Shown one piece after another: positions 32,679-62,482 of a stretch of 64,000 nucleotides of DNA; position 1 is the stretch's first letter, and every line of letters begins with the position of its first letter. The notes beneath the pieces were generated by a model, which was not told the origin of the DNA, searched no databases, and saw nothing but the letters and a program-made list of their open reading frames with translations. Source of the stretch: Gymnogyps californianus (Eukaryota > Chordata > Aves > Accipitriformes > Cathartidae); contig NW_026114301.1 of the NCBI RefSeq assembly GCF_018139145.2, positions 124,001 to 188,000 on the forward strand, written 5' to 3'. The translations under genes and the position numbers were made by a program.

Positions 32679-33822
32679 TGTATTGGGTTTGCGTGGCAAG
32701 GTTTTGGTAGCAGAGGGGCTACAGGGGTGGCTCCTGTGAGAAGCTGCTAGAAGATTCCCCCATGTCTGATAAAGCCAATGCCAGCCAGCTCCAAGACGGA
32801 CCCATCACTGGCCAAGGCCAAGCCAATCAGCGACAGTGGTAGCACCTCTGTGATAACATATTTAAGAAGGGGAAAAGTTACTGCACAGCAGCAATTGCAG
32901 CAAGAGAGAGGAGTGAGAAGATGTGAGAGGAACAACTCTGCAGACACCAAGGTCAGTGAAGAAGGAGGGGGAGGAGGTGCTCCAGGCGCCAGAGCAGAGA
33001 TTCCCCTGCAGCCCGTGGTGAAGACCGTGGTGAGGCAGGCTGTCCCCCTGCAGCCCATGGAGGTTAACGGTGGAGCAGATATCCACCTGCAGCCCATGGA
33101 GGACCCCACGCCGGAGCAGGTAGATGCCCGAAGGACGCTGTGACCCCATGGGAAGTCCGCACTGGAGCAGGCTCCTGGCAGGACCTGTGGACCCGTGGAG
33201 AGAGAGGAGCCCATGCTGGAGCAGGTTTGCTGGCAGGACTTGTGACCCCATGGGGGACCCACACTGGAGCAGTCTGTTCCTGAAGGACTGCACCCCGTGG
33301 AAGGGACCCATGCTGGAGCAGTTTGTGAAGAACTGCAGCCTGTGGGAAGGACCCACATTGGAGAAGTTCATGGAGGACTGTCTCCTGTGGGAGGGACCCC
33401 ATGCTGGAGCAGGGGAAGAGTGTGAGGAGTCCTCCCCCTGAGGAGGAAGGAGCGGCAGAAACAACAAGTGATGAACTGACCACAACCCCCATTCCCTGTC
33501 CCCCTGCACCACTCAGGGGTAGGAGGTAGATAAAATTGGGAGTAAAGTTAAGCCTGGGAAGAAGGGAGGGGTGGGGGGAAGGTGTTTTTAAGATTTGGGT
33601 TTATTTCTCATTATCCTACTCTGATTTGACTGGTAATAAATTAATTTTTTTCCCCAAGTTGAGTCTGTTTTGCCCATGATGGTAACTGCTGAGTGATCTC
33701 CCTGTCCTTATCTCGACCCATGAGCCTTTCATTATATTTTCTCTCCCCTGTCCAGCTGAGGAGGGGAGTGGTAGAGCAGCTTTGGTGGGCATCTGGCATT
33801 CAGCCAGGGTCAACCCACCACA
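32679..33822 (+). mobile_element. B solo LTR, complete reference copy, TSD GGGGC
   Basis: 1144 bp from TGTATTGGG to AACCCACCACA. GGGGC at 32674-32678 and 33823-33827 is a perfect duplication inside a CR1. It contains a CCAAT box (GCCAATCAG, about 32822-32830), a TATA-like TATTTAAG (32859-32866) and AATAAA (33635-33640). If these are the working signals, the R region is over 700 bp long and contains the tandem block at 33065-33425. Confidence 0.96.
33065..33425 (+). repeat. Tandem CTGGAGCAG repeat block of the B LTR
   Basis: Eight units of 44-54 bp, each carrying a GGAGCAG-type core preceded by a CATGG or CGTGG motif and followed by a variable spacer. The same block, in varying completeness, is in every B copy of the window. 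It keeps open frames on both strands, which explains the many serine-, proline- and tryptophan-rich pseudo-ORFs. Confidence 0.85.
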
Positions 33823-54446: not shown

Positions 54447-55419
54447 TGCACTGGGTTTTCTTGACAAGGTTTTGGTAGTGGGGGGGCTGCAGGGGTGGCT
54501 TATGTGAGAAGACATCAGGAGCTGCCCCCACGTTGGACAGAGCCAGTTTTAGCTGGCTCCAAAATGGACCCACCACTGGCTAAAGCTGAGCCAATCAGTA
54601 ATGCTGGTGGCACCTCTGTGATTACATATTTAAGAAAGGGGAAAAAAATGCTGTGCAGCAGCTGTGAGAGAAAGGAATGAGAAAAATGTGTGAGAAAACC
54701 CTGCAGACGCCAAGGTCAGTGAAGAAGGAGGGGGAGGAGGTGCTCCAGGCACTGGAGCAGAGATTCCCCTGCAGACAATGGAGAAGATCATGGTGAAGCA
54801 GTATGTCCCCCTGCAGCCCATGGAGGACCACGGTGGAGCAGATATCCACCCTGCAACCCGTGGAGGACCCCATACTGGAGCAGGTGGATGTGCTCTGAAG
54901 GAAGCTGCAGCCCATGGAGAGCCCACACAGGAGCAGGTTTTCTGGCAGGAACTGCAGCCCGTGGGGGATCCACGCTGGAGCAGTCTGTTCCTGAAGAACT
55001 GCAGCCCATGGGAAGGATCCACATTGGAGCAGTTCTTGAAGGACTGTATCCTGTGGGAGGGACCCCACAGTGGAGCAGGGGAAAAGCATGAGGAGGAAGG
55101 AGTGGCAGAGATGAAGTGTTATGAACTGACCGCAACCCCCATTCCCCATTCTGGGCTCGGGGGAGAAGGTAGAAGAGTTGGGAGTGAAGGAGTGAAGTTG
55201 AGCCTGGGAAGAAGTACGGGGGGTGGAAAGGTGGTTTTCGTGGTTGGTTTTTTTCTTTCTCACTGTCCTACTCTATTTTTATTTGTCAATAAATTAAATT
55301 AATTTCCCCAAGTCAAGTTTGGTTTTGCTTGTGATGGTAATTGGTGAGCAATTTCCCTCTCCTTATCATGACCCATGAGCATTTTCATCTTATTTTCTCC
55401 CCCTGTCCTGCTGAGGAGG

Positions 55420-56083
55420 TGTCGTGGTTTAACCCCAGTCAGCAACTCAGCACCACGCAGCCCTTTCCCCCTCCCCCTCCCAGTGGGGTGAGGAGGAGGA
55501 AAGCAAAGGAAAAAAAAGTAAAACTCATGGGTTGAGATAAGAACAGTTTAATAACTAAAGTAAAATATAATACTAACAATAGTAATAATGAAATCTAATA
55601 ATCATAGTAATGAAAAGGAATGCAACAAAAAAAAAAAAGGAAGGGGGGGGAGGAAAAAACCAGTGATGCACAATGCAATTGCTCACCACCCGCTGACCGA
55701 TGCCAGAGCTGTGATCCGCCTCCCGGCCAACTCCCCCAGTTTATATACTGGAAATTTGGGGATCGAACCCACAACCTTTTTGTGTTATTAGCACCACGCT
55801 CTAACCAACTGAGCTAACCACTGGGCATGACATTCCATGGTATGGAATACCCCTTTGGCTAGTTCAGGTCAGCTGCCCCGGCTGTGCTCCCTCCAGCTTC
55901 TTGCACACCTGCTTTCTGGCAGAGCATGGGAAACTGAAAAGTCCTTGGCTTAAGATAAGCGCTACTTAGCAACAACTAAAACATCAGAGTGTTATCAACA
56001 TCATTCTCACACTAAATCCAAAACACAGCACTGTACCAGCTACTAAAAAGAAAGTTAACTCTGTCCCAGCCGAAACCAGGACA
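55420..56083 (-). mobile_element. 3' LTR of provirus 2 (A1 with tRNA insert)
   Basis: 664 bp, starts TGTCCTGG at 56083 and ends ACCACGACA at 55420 on the minus strand. It is nearly identical to the 5' LTR, including the whole tRNA-like insert. Confidence 0.97.
55752..55819 (-). tRNA. tRNA-Ile(AAT)-like sequence in 3' LTR U3
   Basis: Identical over all 68 bp to the copy at 62087-62154, with ACTGG on both sides (55747-55751 and 55820-55824). In the genomic RNA of the virus this U3 copy would lie near the 3' end, ahead of the polyadenylation signal. Confidence 0.92.
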
Positions 56084-56584
56084 ATATCCACCCCTTATTC
56101 TATACCATTTACGTTATGCCCAGATCCCACACTTTCTGATACATTTCCAATTAATCACCATCACCTTTCCTGTCTTTTAATATATACACACAGATATCAT
56201 TCCCGCGGTCTATGGGCCATCTCTATCAAATGTCTGTTGAGTTCATTCAGTCCATGACTTTGAGCTCCATCTATCGTAACAGTCTGTCTGGGCAGGAGGG
56301 ATGATGCGAAGTCTGCTCAGTCGGCAGAACAGGATTGGGCTTCGGTGTGATGTGGCAGGCAGGTGACATTGGGCGCAGCAGGAGGATGGTGTGTGGTGTC
56401 GGATTGTTGCATGCTGCAGTCAGTCCTGGTTCCATCACTACTGCACTTCCCTCAGTTTTGTCAAAGTTCATTCTTCATTAATCTAAGTAATTCTTACTGT
56501 AATACCATTAATATAGCACATAATTATAATAATGATGACATACAGTGGCAGGATTATATAGCAATTAATAGCATACATTTTAAT
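56084..56584 (-). other. Provirus 2 3' noncoding region with polypurine tract
   Basis: About 500 bp between the pol stop and the 3' LTR without an open frame of note, and no envelope gene. AGAATAAGGGGTGGA (minus strand, about 56089-56103), immediately before the LTR, is the likely polypurine tract that primes plus-strand DNA synthesis. Confidence 0.75.
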
Positions 56585-59500
56585 CTATTGGCTGTTCTCA
56601 CCTAAAATCAAATCCCCTTGAGGCACACATCGGACTTCCCCATCCTTCCGCATCACCCACCAAGTGCACCCAGGCCCTTGAGCAAAAGCAATCCCAGGAA
56701 TGGGTTTGCCTTTGCCTGAGGCAGGAGTAACCCAGACTGTCTTTCCTAGCATAATCTTTATGTGCACTACAGGGACTTTATCCCCTTCTACAGTACGTAA
56801 AAGTTCTGATTGGGCAGGGCCAGCTCGATGGACAGATCCTCTAGTGTTGACTAACCAGGTGGCCTTTGCTAGATGTGTATCCCAATGTTTGAAAGTCCCA
56901 CCACCCATTGCTCTCAATGTAGTCTTTAACAATCCATTGTATCGCTCGATTTTCCTGGAGGCTGGTGCATGATAGGGGATGTGATACACCCACTCAATGC
57001 CGTGCTCTTTGGCCCAGGTGTCTATGAGATTGTTCCGGAAATGAGTCCCATTGTCTGACTCCATTCTTTCTGGGGTACCGTGTCGCCATAAGATTTGCTT
57101 CTCAAGGCCCAGGATAGTGTTCCGGGCAGTGGTATGGGGCATGGGATATGTTTCCAGCCAGCCGGTGGTTGCTTCCACCATTGTAAGCACATGGCGCTTA
57201 CCTTGACGGGTTTGTGGGAGTGTGATATAGTCAATCTGCCAGGCCTCCCCATATTTGTATTTCAGCCATCGTCCTCCATACCAAAGAGGCTTTAACCGCT
57301 TGGCTTGCTTGATTGCAGCGCATGTTTCATATTCATGGATAACCTGTGCGATAGTGTCCATGGTCAGGTCCACCCCTCGATCACGAGCCCATCTATATGT
57401 TGCATCTCTTCCCTGATGGCCTGAGGTGTCATGGGCCCACCGAGCTAAAAATAATTCACCCTTATGCTGCCAATCCAGATCCACCTGAGCTACTTCAATC
57501 CTAGCAGCCTTGTCTACCTGTTGATTGTTTTGATGTTCTTCAGTGGCCCGACTCTTAGGTACGTGGGCATCTACATGACGTACTTTCACAACCAGGTTCT
57601 CTAGCCGGGCAGCAATATCTTGCCACAATGCGGCAGCCCAGATGGGTTTACCTCTGTGTTGCCAGTTACTCCGCTTCCATTGCTGCACCCACCCCCACAG
57701 AGCATTTGCCACCATCCATGAGTCAGTATAGAGATAAAGTATTGGCCATTTTTCTCGTTCAGCAATGTCTAAAGCCAGCTGGATGGCTTTCACCTCTGCA
57801 AACTGACTCGATTCACCTTCTCCTTCAGCAGTTTCTGCAACTTGTCATATAGGACTCCATACAGCCGCCTTCCACCTCCGATGCTTTCCAACAATGCGAC
57901 AGGACCCATCAGTGAACAGGGCATATTGCCTCTCATTTTCTGGCAGTTTATTATACAGTGGGGCCTCTTCAGCACGCGTTACCTCCTCCTCTGGCGATAT
58001 TCCAACATCTTTGCCTTCTGGCCAGTCCGTGATCACTTCCAGAATTCCTGGGCGACTGGGATTTCCTATTCGACTTCGTTGTGTGATCAGTGCAACCCAC
58101 CTACTCCATGTAGCATCAGTTGCATGATGTGTAGAAGGGACCTTCCCTTTGAACATCCAGCCCAGCACCGGCAGTCGGGGTGCTAATAGGAGCTGTGTTT
58201 CAGTACCAACCACTTCTGAAGCAGCTCAAACTCCTTCATATGCTGCTAATATCTCCTTTTCATGTGGAGTATAGCGGGCCTCAGATCCTCGATATCCCCG
58301 ACTCCAAAACCCTAGAGGTCGACCTCGGGTCTCCCCAGGTGCTTTCTGCCAGAGACTCCAGGTAGGGCCATTCTCCCCGGCTGCGGTGTAGAGCACATTT
58401 TTAACATCTGGTCCTGCCCGGACTGGCCCAAGGGCTACTGCATGAACTATCTCCCGTTTAATCTGTTCAAAGGCTTGTTGTTGCTCAGGGCCCCATTTAA
58501 AATCGTTCTTCTTCTGGGTCACTTGATAGAGAGGGCTTACAATCATACTATAATTTGGAATATGCATTCTCCAAAAACCTACAACACCTAAGAAAGCTTG
58601 TGTTTCCTGTTTACTAGTTGGTGGAGACATAGCTGCTATTGTGTTGATCACATCCATTGGGATGTGACGACGTCCATCTTGCCATTTTATTCCTAAAAAC
58701 TGAATCTCCTGTGCAGGTCCCTTCACCTTACTCTGTTTTATGGCAAAACCAGCTTTCAGAAGGTTTTCCATTATTTTCTCCCCTTTCTCAAAAACTTCTT
58801 CTGCTGTGTTGCCCCATACAATGATGTCATCAATGTATTGCAGGTGTTCTGGAGCTCCACCTTTTTCCAGTGCATTTTGGATTAGTCCATGGCAAATGGT
58901 GGGGCTGTGTTTCCACCCCTGGGGCAGTCTATTCCAAGTGTACTGGACGCCCCTCCAAGTGAAAGCAAACTGTGGCCGGCACTCTGCTGCCAAAGGGATT
59001 GAGAAAAATGCATTAGCAATATCAATTGTGGTGTACCACTTGGCTGCCGTTGACTCCAGTTCATATTGAAGTTCTAGCATGTCTGGCACGGCAGCACTCA
59101 GCGGCGGTGTGACTTCATTCAGGCCACGATAGTCCACTGTTAGTCTCCATTCTCCATCAGACTTTCGCACTGGCCAAATGGGGCTGTTAAAGGGTGAGCG
59201 AGTCCTGCTGATCACTCCTTGGCTCTCCAGTCGACGAATCAGCTTATGGATGGGAATCAGGGAGTCTTGGTTGGTGCGATATTGCTGCCGGTGCACCCTT
59301 GTGGTAGCGATTGGCACCTGTTGTTCTTCGACCCTCAGCAACCCCACAACCGAAGGGTCCTCAGAGAGTCCGGGCAAGGTGGACAACTGTTCAATTCCCT
59401 CTGTCTCCAAGGCAGCTATACCAAAGGCCCACCGGTACCCCTTTGGGTCCTTGAAATACCCTCTCCTGAGATAATCTATGCCAAGAATGCATGGGGCCTC

Positions 59501-59770
59501 TGGGCCAGTCACAATGGGGTGTTTCTGCCACTCATTCCCAGTTAGGCTTATTTCAGCCTCCAATACAGTTAACTGTTGAGATCCCCCTGTCACCCCAGAA
59601 ATACAAATGGGTTCTACCCCTTTATAGCTTGATGGCATTAGAGTACACTGTGCACCGGTGTCCACTAGAGCCTTATACTCCTGTGGGTCTGATGTGCCAG
59701 GCCATCGGATCCACACAGTCCAGTAAACCCGGTTGTCCCTCTCCTCCGCCTGGCTGGAGTCAGGGCCCCT
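56585..59770 (-). pseudogene. pol: Provirus 2 pro-pol (protease, RT, RNase H, integrase), two stops
   Basis: In frame with gag across the TAG. Protease has LVDTGAQ. RT has DIANAFFSI, LPQGWKHSPTICH and YIDD (58826-58837). RNase H has LFTDGS and YTDSW. Integrase has HDTSGH with one zinc-ligand cysteine changed (HEYETC), then aspartates in QIDYI and ESDNGTHF and a glutamate in KIERYNG, with exactly 35 residues between the last two (DD35E). The C-terminal domain ends GENSQ at 56585. Breaks are TGA at 58226-58228 (also in provirus 1) and TGA near 57845. No dUTPase follows. The family is ERVL-like (class III). Confidence 0.95.
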
Positions 59771-61633
59771 CTAGTCCTGGTCATAGGATTCTCCACTCAC
59801 TTGTAAAAATGGATTAGAATTCCTTTTCATAGAATCAGGAGTAAGATCAGCCCTTCCACTCTGTCGGCCACACCGCTCGCAGTGCTCACTGGAGGCTGAA
59901 GCAACCATTTTCCTGGAAGAACCCTCATTTGTGGTTGTTTTTCCTTTCAATTCATGTACCCGTGCATCTAGGACCGAGGTAGGTTTTCCATCCCACTTCC
60001 TCATATCCTCTCCGTGGTCAAGCAGGTAAAACCACAGGGTACCCCATGGCATATACCTTCTCTCTCCTCTCTCTTGCCCAGATGAATACCTTCTCCTAAT
60101 AGCTGAGGTATTGGTCCATGCAGGTGGGAGGCAGAACTTATCCTCAAATCGCTGGAACCCTCGGGACCATTTCTCGGCTAGTATGTCTGGCAGTCTCTCC
60201 ACAGCCGTGACGAGGGAGGAAGTGAGACTTTCTTCGTATTGCCAAAGTTGGCAAGCCAATTCATCTACTGTTGGTCCCTCCTCGTCTTTCCAGTCCATTA
60301 CTTCCAATGCATTGGCATATGACGATGATGGTGCACTTCGTACAAACTTCCGCCACATGGGTCATGCACATTGGACTTCATCTGGATCTGTGGGTAACTG
60401 CCCATCGTCTGGGTCATAATAAACCATCTCCCGCACGGCTAATTCCCTCAGGTACTGGATACCTTTCTCCATGGTGGTCCACTTGCCTGGGTGACATACA
60501 ACATCTTCCTTGAAGGGGTACCTTTCCCTCACGCCCGATAGAAGTCGCCTCCAGAGGCTGAGGGCTTGTGGCTTTTTCCCAATCGCCTTGTCAATGCCCC
60601 CTTCCCTAGAAAGGGATCCCAATTGCTTGGCTTCCTTACCCTCTAATTCCAAGCTACTTGCCCCATTATCCCAGCATCGGAGCAGCCAGGTGATAATGTG
60701 CTCGCCTGGATGACGGCTGAAGTCTTTTCGCATATCTCGCAGCTCACTCGGGGATAGGGATTGAGTGATTATCTCCGGTTCTGCCTCTTCCTCCTGTTCT
60801 CGTGATGACCCTGCTTCACCTTCATCCTTCGCTAAGCGAACTGATTTTTTTGTATATTTCTTCTTCTGTATAGGGGCGATTGATATTGGCACCGGTTGAT
60901 TCTCTAGTTCAGCTGCATCATCCATTGCCAAGGTTTGAGTAGCCACAGTGCCTGTTGCTGGGGTTTGAGTAGCTGCAGTGCCTGTCACCAGAGTTTGAGT
61001 AGCCGCAGTGCCTGTTGCCAGGGTTGGAGTAGCTGCAGTCGTGGGAGCTGATCTCTGGGTGGTATTTTTAAATAGTTGTTTAACCCTAGACAAGATCTGA
61101 ATCACATTCAGGAACAGGCTGGTTCCTAGCAATAGGACCATACTAAGTTCAACATCCCAAGGATATTCAAAATTTACAAACTCCTTCAATGCTATTGCAA
61201 TTAACCTGGCAGAGAAGGGGAAGATGTGGGAAGATGTCTCCACAATAGGTTGGCTCCCCGAGGAGAAAAGGTAGAAAGAGCAATTATTAATATTCTCTAG
61301 GAGATAGCACCCGAAGTACGGAGATCTCTCCTCCATAGATTGGCTCCCAGAGGAGAAAAGGTAAAAGGTACAATTATTAATAGTCTCCCATAGGCGGCTC
61401 CCGAAGTACAGAGGTGACAACAATGCCGAGTACAAACACCCGATTAGTTTCACGGCTTGCACTTCTATCATATCATAAACCAGTGTTACAAACAACAACA
61501 ACGTGATAACTCTAGCCCGGTTCCCACAGAAGATAAACAGCACAACAGGGAGCATATACTGCAAGTAGGGCATTACATAACGCAACTTCAAGAACCACCA
61601 CCACACCAACCTTGAGAGCAAACGAACCCACAT
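59771..61633 (-). pseudogene. gag: Provirus 2 gag, one premature stop
   Basis: Open from 61633 (start codon about 120 bases inside the LTR, as in provirus 1) for 423 codons to a TGA at 60362-60364, then open again to the TAG at 59771-59773. The N-terminus is hydrophobic as in provirus 1, with NCT and NCS glycosylation sequons. A 90-bp tandem duplication (61232-61411) has doubled the sequon-bearing loop. The hydrophobic segment near the middle (LSMVLLLGTSLFLNV) is conserved. About 100 residues present in provirus 1 are missing just before the 10-residue repeats (60912-61040), without loss of frame. The single private stop lies where provirus 1 has CGA. Confidence 0.88.
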
Positions 61634-61728
61634 TGTAACCAGTAACTATCAAACCAATACAATGAATACTTATAACAAGTTTGTTTTAACACACTCTGAT
61701 CAGATCCGTCGTTATCTCAACCCTTCGA

Positions 61729-61746
61729 GCCCCATGTTGGGTGCCA
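61729..61746 (-). promoter_or_regulatory. Primer-binding site of provirus 2
   Basis: The minus strand reads TGGCACCCAACATGGGGC just inside the 5' LTR. It differs at two positions from the tRNA-Lys1,2-type site (from memory), and at different positions from provirus 1 except for the shared A at position 5. The ancestral site therefore probably had a single mismatch. Confidence 0.75.
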
Positions 61747-61753
61747 AAAAGGC

Positions 61754-62419
61754 TCTCGTGGTTTAACCCCAGTCAGCAACTCAGCACCACGCAGCCGTTT
61801 CCCCCTCCCCCTCCCAGTGGGGTGAGGAGGAGGAAAGCAAAGGAAAAAAAAGTAAAACTCGTGGGTTGAGATAAGAACAGTTTAATAGCTAAAGTAAAAT
61901 ATAATACTAACAATAGTAATAATGAAATCTAATAATCATAGTAATGAAAAGGAATGCAACAAAAAAAAAAAAGGAGGGGGGGAAGGAAAAAAACCAGTGA
62001 TGCACAATGCAATTGCTCACCACCCGCTGACCGATGCCAGAGCTGTGATCCGCCTCCCGGCCAACTCCCCCCAGTTTATATACTGGAAATTTGGGGATCG
62101 AACCCACAACCTTTTTGTGTTATTAGCACCACGCTCTAACCAACTGAGCTAACCACTGGGCATGACATTCCATGGTATGGAATACCCCTTTGGCTAGTTC
62201 AGGTCAGCTGCCCCGGCTGTGCTCCCTCCCAGCTTCTTGCACACCTGCTTTCTGGCAGAACATGGGAAACTGAAAAGTCCTTGGCTTAAGATAAGCGCTA
62301 GTTAGCAACAACTAAAACCTCAGAGTGTTATCAACATCATTCTCACACTAAATCCAAAACACAGCACTGTACCAGCTACTAAAAAGAAAGTTAACTCTGT
62401 CCCAGCCGAAACCAGGACA
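61754..62419 (-). mobile_element. 5' LTR of provirus 2 (A1 with tRNA insert)
   Basis: 666 bp on the minus strand. The TATA box (TATATAAAC) lies at 62074-62082, ATTAAA at 61881-61886, and a T12 run (minus strand) at 61961-61972. A 73-bp gain relative to other A1 copies lies directly upstream of the TATA box. Confidence 0.96.
62087..62154 (-). tRNA. tRNA-Ile(AAT)-like sequence in 5' LTR U3
   Basis: On the minus strand this holds a complete D arm (TAGCTCAGTTGGTTAGAGC, with the A box), an anticodon arm with loop CTAATAA (anticodon AAT, four of five stem pairs) and a T arm with GGTTCGATCCC (the B box). It follows nuclear tRNA-Ile(AAT) almost base for base (from memory) through the anticodon loop. 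The first bases of the 5' acceptor strand are absent, the acceptor stem does not pair, and the region between anticodon and T arms has two extra bases. ACTGG at 62082-62086 and 62155-62159 flanks the 68-bp insert. It is unlikely to yield a functional tRNA, but its Pol III promoter boxes are intact. Confidence 0.92.
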
Positions 62420-62482
62420 GGAGGGGGAGTGACAGAGTGGCTTGGTGGGCACCTGGCAGCCAGCCAAGGTTAACCCACCACA

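Follow-up and report, generated by a model that had tools for sequence, protein, structure and literature searches.

A tRNA-Ile-derived fragment beside the TATA box in a mobilised LTR subfamily of a condor endogenous retrovirus

An intriguing question raised by this locus is whether a tRNA-like sequence next to the TATA box of a retroviral long terminal repeat (LTR) is peculiar to one provirus or is an established part of a mobile family and, in the latter case, how it was acquired and whether it contributes to transcription. The window, the whole stretch of 64,000 nucleotides of Gymnogyps californianus DNA analysed here, contains an endogenous retrovirus (ERV) of gag-pro-pol type on the minus strand (55420-62419), recognised by its LTRs, its reverse transcriptase and integrase ORFs and its outer repeats. 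BLAST and LTR alignment place the 5′ LTR at 61754-62419 and the 3′ LTR at 55420-56083 (both minus strand). Domain matches identify an ORF for reverse transcriptase (RVT_1 and RT_RNaseH_2; 58229-59716, minus strand) and an ORF for RNase H and integrase (RNase_H and rve; 56588-57793, minus strand); the internal region that carries them spans 5.7 kb and the whole element 7 kb. No env is visible in the ORF layout of this provirus, in which ~500 bp separate the integrase ORF from the 3′ LTR and leave too little room for one. GGAGG bounds the LTR pair on both outer sides (55415-55419 and 62420-62424), as expected for one integration. The ERV features sought (LTRs of the form TG...CA, target duplications, reverse transcriptase and integrase) were all found in the window provirus and the copies fetched from the genome; the terminal CA is lost from the 5′ LTR of the window provirus. 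A putative primer-binding site, read by eye at 61729-61746 (minus strand), resembles what we take by its letters to be tRNA-Lys and not tRNA-Ile, so the captured tRNA-Ile sequence does not look like the primer.

Both LTRs contain the identical 68-bp insert reported by the first-pass annotation, at 62087-62154 in the 5′ LTR and at 55752-55819 in the 3′ LTR (minus strand). The annotation had also placed a 5-bp duplicated target between the insert and the TATA box, and ACTGG indeed flanks each copy, as direct repeats at 62082-62086 (TATA side) and 62155-62159 in the 5′ LTR, and at 55747-55751 (TATA side) and 55820-55824 in the 3′ LTR. The TATATAAA box (62075-62082, minus strand) lies directly downstream of the insert and overlaps the ACTGG repeat by one base. 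Window LTRs without the insert have the ACTGG site once, reading CCAGT, TCAGT or CCAAT in the sense orientation. Aligned to vertebrate tRNA-Ile(AAT), which we take as the reference for its anatomy, the insert comprises tRNA nucleotides 5 to 64 with an altered variable loop, followed by AAATTT; LTR sequence and AAATTT stand in place of tRNA nucleotides 1-4 and of the 3′ acceptor strand. Both window copies are called as tRNA-Ile(aat) by ARAGORN, which makes no call in 40 dinucleotide shuffles of the window, in agreement with the tRNA-Ile origin first proposed and against a resemblance no better than chance. Because the acceptor strands are missing and LTR sequence flanks the insert, the acceptor stem drawn by ARAGORN is partly LTR.

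A mobilised subfamily of tRNA-bearing LTRs

The filled 5′ junction, searched as a 27-nt pattern with at most 3 mismatches, occurs in 147 places in the 1.24-Gb genome assembly, compared with 0 for the reversed-pattern control; the two window LTRs are part of this count, as are any segments present in duplicate, and copies in which the 5′ end of the insert is more decayed are missed. Among 100 matches listed of the 147, 81 are exact and 19 have one mismatch. We fetched 80 loci: 60 of these 81 exact matches, every one of the 19 with a single mismatch and, in addition, L069. Near-full-length LTRs were recovered at 76 of them; the four partial copies (L016, L041, L057 and L067) were left out of the LTR statistics. 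The search pattern largely imposes the 5′ direct repeat, present in 80/80 loci, but not the exact ATTTCCAGT 3′ junction, present in 67/80. Exact target duplications of 5-6 bp bound 49 of the 76 near-full-length copies; 11 more have a duplication with a single mismatch and 16 have none that close, and the number of exact duplications expected from shuffled partners is far lower (mean 0.54, maximum 3; 200 shuffles). In aligned copies the duplications read as 5 bp.

A second provirus (C112, comprising L062 and L069) carries the insert in both LTRs. Three of its internal pieces match the window provirus at 88.9, 96.0 and 94.5% identity, and a stretch similar to the primer-binding site of the latter comes after the LTR in L062. 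Among the fetched loci, matching internal sequence is correctly placed only at L062 and L069; we read the filled copies as mostly solo LTRs, which is a reading and not a count, as differently flanked internal regions would escape detection. The tRNA-bearing LTRs are a real, mobilised subfamily, in which the insert has fixed junctions, has moved together with the LTR that contains it, giving fresh target duplications, and occurs in several LTR backgrounds. The 147 junctions, the target duplications and the two filled LTRs of C112 bear out the earlier view that the insert was acquired before integration and carried through reverse transcription. Restriction to one locus, which would have undone that view, is contradicted by the junction search, and an assembly artefact is ruled out by the 147 places together with the separate target duplications.

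The empty junction (19-nt pattern, at most 2 mismatches) occurs in 20,080 places in the assembly, with 5 for the control, such that filled junctions make up ~0.7% of the total counted; this ratio is rough, as the patterns differ in length and in mismatches. These numbers reveal a very large LTR family, the compared copies of which look like recombined mosaics. Within the window we found 6 empty junctions at up to 3 mismatches (0.02 expected), and BLAST found 8 further LTR loci that lack the insert and align to both flanks of the site, as well as shorter pieces; 3 of the 8 loci have an unaligned stretch between the two sides. The figure of nine or more insert-free LTR copies given at first pass was therefore roughly right. 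Exact-pattern scans of viral contigs and GTDB genome contigs gave 0 matches, as expected for a bird element.

In contig C523 of the assembly (G000), L067 and L070 lie 6.4 kb apart with the same insert, and the insert of L067 adjoins other LTR sequence. We considered and rejected this pair as a third provirus, L070 being a solo LTR that lies within the internal region of another ERV.

Origin of the insert and its spread between LTR backgrounds

We consider it probable that a tRNA-Ile fragment was captured beside the TATA box during reverse transcription and amplified with the ERV family, mainly as a passenger. Under this explanation, a gag-pro-pol ERV family without visible env would have acquired nucleotides 5-64 of tRNA-Ile(AAT), together with AAATTT, in its U3 region when reverse transcriptase switched template onto tRNA-Ile. 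The promoter presumably tolerated the gain of 73 bp, the TATA box and the sequence downstream being untouched. A second, rearranged tRNA-Ile capture (L116; G000:C190, ~33740-33799) also starts at about tRNA nucleotide 5, and consists of the first 49 bp of U3, the tRNA-Ile sequence and an inverted internal ERV stretch matching window positions 59609-60987. Its second junction shows short homology, and joints of this kind are a typical product of template switching by reverse transcriptase. The start of both captures lies close to the 5′ end of the tRNA, the point at which a polymerase that runs off its tRNA template would jump, which suggests template switching as the route; the chief alternative is that a LINE-type mechanism inserted a tRNA fragment. 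The AAATTT end of the insert is without an explained source, and this counts against the explanation that we favour.

The most developed form of the LINE alternative is that the insert is a truncated tRNA-Ile SINE, or retropseudogene, placed in the LTR by LINE machinery and then amplified. The 5-bp duplication fits such an origin, and the passerine TguSINE1, also tRNA-Ile derived and from a bird genome, has a tRNA-Ile head like that seen here (PMC5729268); insertion of a SINE into an LTR has moreover been proposed by Kojima as the origin of Helenus elements (PMC10886601). TguSINE1 is described as a SINE with a CR1 tail, mobilised by CR1 and not itself part of an LTR (PMC5729268), whereas the condor insert has neither a CR1-derived tail nor the 8-bp microsatellite (ATTCTRTG) and ends in AAATTT, followed directly by LTR. 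A whole-tRNA search of the assembly also weighs against free-standing SINE copies: of 28 tRNA-Ile matches inspected among the 40 scored of 158 candidates, 27 are the LTR insert and the other is L116. The copy with an unmodified variable loop is, in addition, 95% identical to the reference tRNA over nucleotides 5-64. On balance we regard a SINE origin as unlikely. Matches among the scored candidates reach nucleotides 5-64 at most, and a search of the whole assembly with the 5′ 26 nt of the vertebrate tRNA-Ile(AAT) reference (at most 2 mismatches) matched only the L116 site; the source tRNA-Ile gene may differ from the reference sequence or be unassembled.

Among the 76 near-full-length copies, the insert occurs in LTR backgrounds A (57), B (17) and C (2), and these three backgrounds look recombined. 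Over U3, filled LTRs resemble three of the four empty window LTRs compared (medians of.962,.938 and.935) about as closely as they resemble each other (.942); the fourth, the C-type E10, is distant from most filled LTRs and 95% identical to the filled L035. Four-gamete conflicts across the insert were found for 515 of 850 site pairs in 72 copies, and within the flanks for 68/136 pairs on the left and 621/1225 on the right. When the possibly misaligned pyrimidine-tract sites are left out, conflicts number 312/561 across the insert, 68/136 on the left and 110/528 on the right, the right side showing the drop, and left sites conflict with the nearest right sites in 37/85 pairs; recurrent mutation or misalignment can also yield such conflicts. 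The mosaic appearance of the flanks makes recombination the probable means by which the insert spread. We suggest that it took place between related viral RNAs and brought the insert to other LTR backgrounds; for single pairs, recurrent mutation is possible.

Two copies point to how the common form may have arisen. L099 retains the unmodified variable loop (GCCAAGG) in a C-type U3, with its own GTGGC duplication; its U3 shares 94-96% identity with the empty LTR found at 10.4-11.0 kb of the window, and the copy is a mosaic, with a right side closest to the empty LTR at 19.0-19.6 kb. L108 has an intermediate form that reads GCCAAAAGG, an A-like U3 and its own GCCAG duplication. Each is a single copy, found among the 40 scored of 158 candidates. 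Together they point to a founder that probably differed little from intact tRNA-Ile over nucleotides 5-64 and was captured in what may have been a C-type U3. The simplest order would be that two changes in the variable loop followed, from the L099 form to the L108 form to the common form; this order rests on little, since both early forms are single copies and L099 is itself a mosaic.

Comparison with known elements

LTRs that bear tRNA sequences are known from Helenus TRIMs, or TRIMp3 (Kojima 2024, PMC10886601). As described there, Helenus elements have in common with the condor subfamily two LTRs that each contain a tRNA-derived sequence with A and B boxes, as seen in the window provirus, copying by LTR-retrotransposon machinery, and little likelihood of encoding a working tRNA. 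They differ in being non-autonomous and only 311-1263 bp long, whereas the window element is 7 kb, with reverse transcriptase and integrase ORFs in a 5.7-kb internal region, pieces of which are matched at C112. Animal Helenus have 4-bp duplications compared with the exact 5-6 bp of 49/76 condor copies. The Helenus primer-binding site has similarity to Gypsy. The window LTR has a TATA box. According to the same account, any autonomous partner would have to use a Pol II promoter, and extensive LTR sequence in common between such a partner and TRIMp3 is unlikely. Cassandra, as described in PMC10886601, is a TRIM that likewise has a fragment of a Pol III gene in its LTR, and transcripts from its Pol III promoter are known; it differs in that the fragment is 5S rRNA and the element is non-autonomous and from plants. 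Sequences like tRNAs embedded in avian transposable elements were reported by Ottenburghs et al. 2021, as summarised in a Highlight (PMC8044554) that itself names neither the elements nor the tRNAs, so that the condor LTR subfamily may or may not be among them.

Our literature search, mainly outside subscription papers, turned up no description that we recognised of a tRNA-bearing LTR in a coding ERV. Tentatively, then, what looks new is the host element, an apparently coding ERV that has kept its TATA box, and not tRNA-bearing LTRs as such. The condor subfamily may show the step at which such LTRs are born, in a coding ERV that retains its Pol II promoter, with apparent intermediates present. 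It also carries a caution for tRNA annotation, as a young ERV subfamily can mimic tRNA-Ile genes in appearance.

Pol III boxes, selection and age

Two readings would give the insert a function of its own. That a functional tRNA gene or tRNA mimic travels with the ERV, as suggested in part at first pass, draws on the ARAGORN calls for both window copies; we consider it highly improbable and reject it on the fold, the score and the missing acceptor stem. Neither a full acceptor stem nor a score above the Rfam gathering threshold was found, as RF00005 reaches 25.2 bits on the window insert (E 0.0015) and, reported for 7 of the 20 loci scored, at best 26.2 bits, compared with a gathering score of 29; a whole-window Rfam scan at the gathering score found nothing. 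The CCAAGG of the tRNA variable loop is kept in 0/80 fetched loci, being replaced by CAAAAAGG in 71 and by another form in 9, and ARAGORN calls a tRNA in 3/80 only. The window insert is tRNA-derived, but by its sequence would not pass as a tRNA gene there. ARAGORN calls the window copies but not 77 of the 80 other loci, perhaps as CpG decay restores a T-arm pair.

The other reading is of a hybrid promoter, in which the insert recruits TFIIIC or Pol III, as a barrier, an insulator or the start of a short transcript, and so aids escape from silencing and spread. The A and B boxes have tRNA-like spacing, and both are intact in 40 of the 80 fetched loci; taken singly, the B box is intact in 43 and the A box in 75, a figure that the search pattern biases. 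Four or more consecutive T occur within 85-149 nt downstream of the insert in 80/80 loci. The T12 run that the first-pass annotation had proposed as a terminator (61961-61972, minus strand) is, as stated, 115 nt past the insert, but a T7 run (61987-61993, minus strand) precedes it at 94 nt and is the first possible Pol III terminator. Where both boxes survive, TFIIIC might bind the insert, or short Pol III transcripts might start from it and end at the T runs, ~94-115 nt downstream in the window copy; activity of this kind is possible. The presence of the insert in three LTR backgrounds, and of 0 shared non-CpG variants at 58 insert sites, would also fit. Set against these points are the 147 filled versus 20,080 empty junctions, the free decay of CpG sites within the insert, also in its B box, and private mutations that accumulate in the insert at the rate of the flanks. 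The insulator or Pol III role first proposed thus draws its support from the box sequences, and we consider the hybrid-promoter reading doubtful; its more specific version, a two-polymerase LTR promoter on an ERV of autonomous type in which the tRNA-Ile A/B-box module beside the TATA box recruits TFIIIC or Pol III, protects the LTR from silencing and was spread between LTR lineages by recombination, appears marginally more doubtful still. As filled and empty LTRs occur in one genome, the effect of Pol III boxes on an LTR is directly testable with natural copies.

The private mutations fit an insert that is mainly a passenger. In 55 of the 57 group-A copies (L069 and L070 left out), their non-CpG rate, per site and per copy, is.0079-.0087 in the insert and.0071-.0111 in the flanks, with no sign of selection on the insert after integration, and its CpG sites decay strongly. 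Shared variants with a minor count of at least 4 occur at 0/58 non-CpG insert sites compared with 18/244 U3 sites (p = 0.019) and 60/540 sites of all flanks (p = 0.0016); the first 22 insert positions were themselves subject to selection by the search pattern. This deficit counts against the passenger explanation, as it could mean that the insert was constrained while the element replicated; it could equally mean that the insert is young and its recombining flanks are older. Purifying selection inferred from low diversity was not accepted, as recombination explains low diversity too.

The two LTRs of the window provirus have 12 differences in 664 positions, and those of C112 have 27 in 680. 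Avian substitution rates are near 2e-9 per site per year, which gives insertion ages of roughly 4-5 million years for the window provirus and roughly 10 million years for C112.
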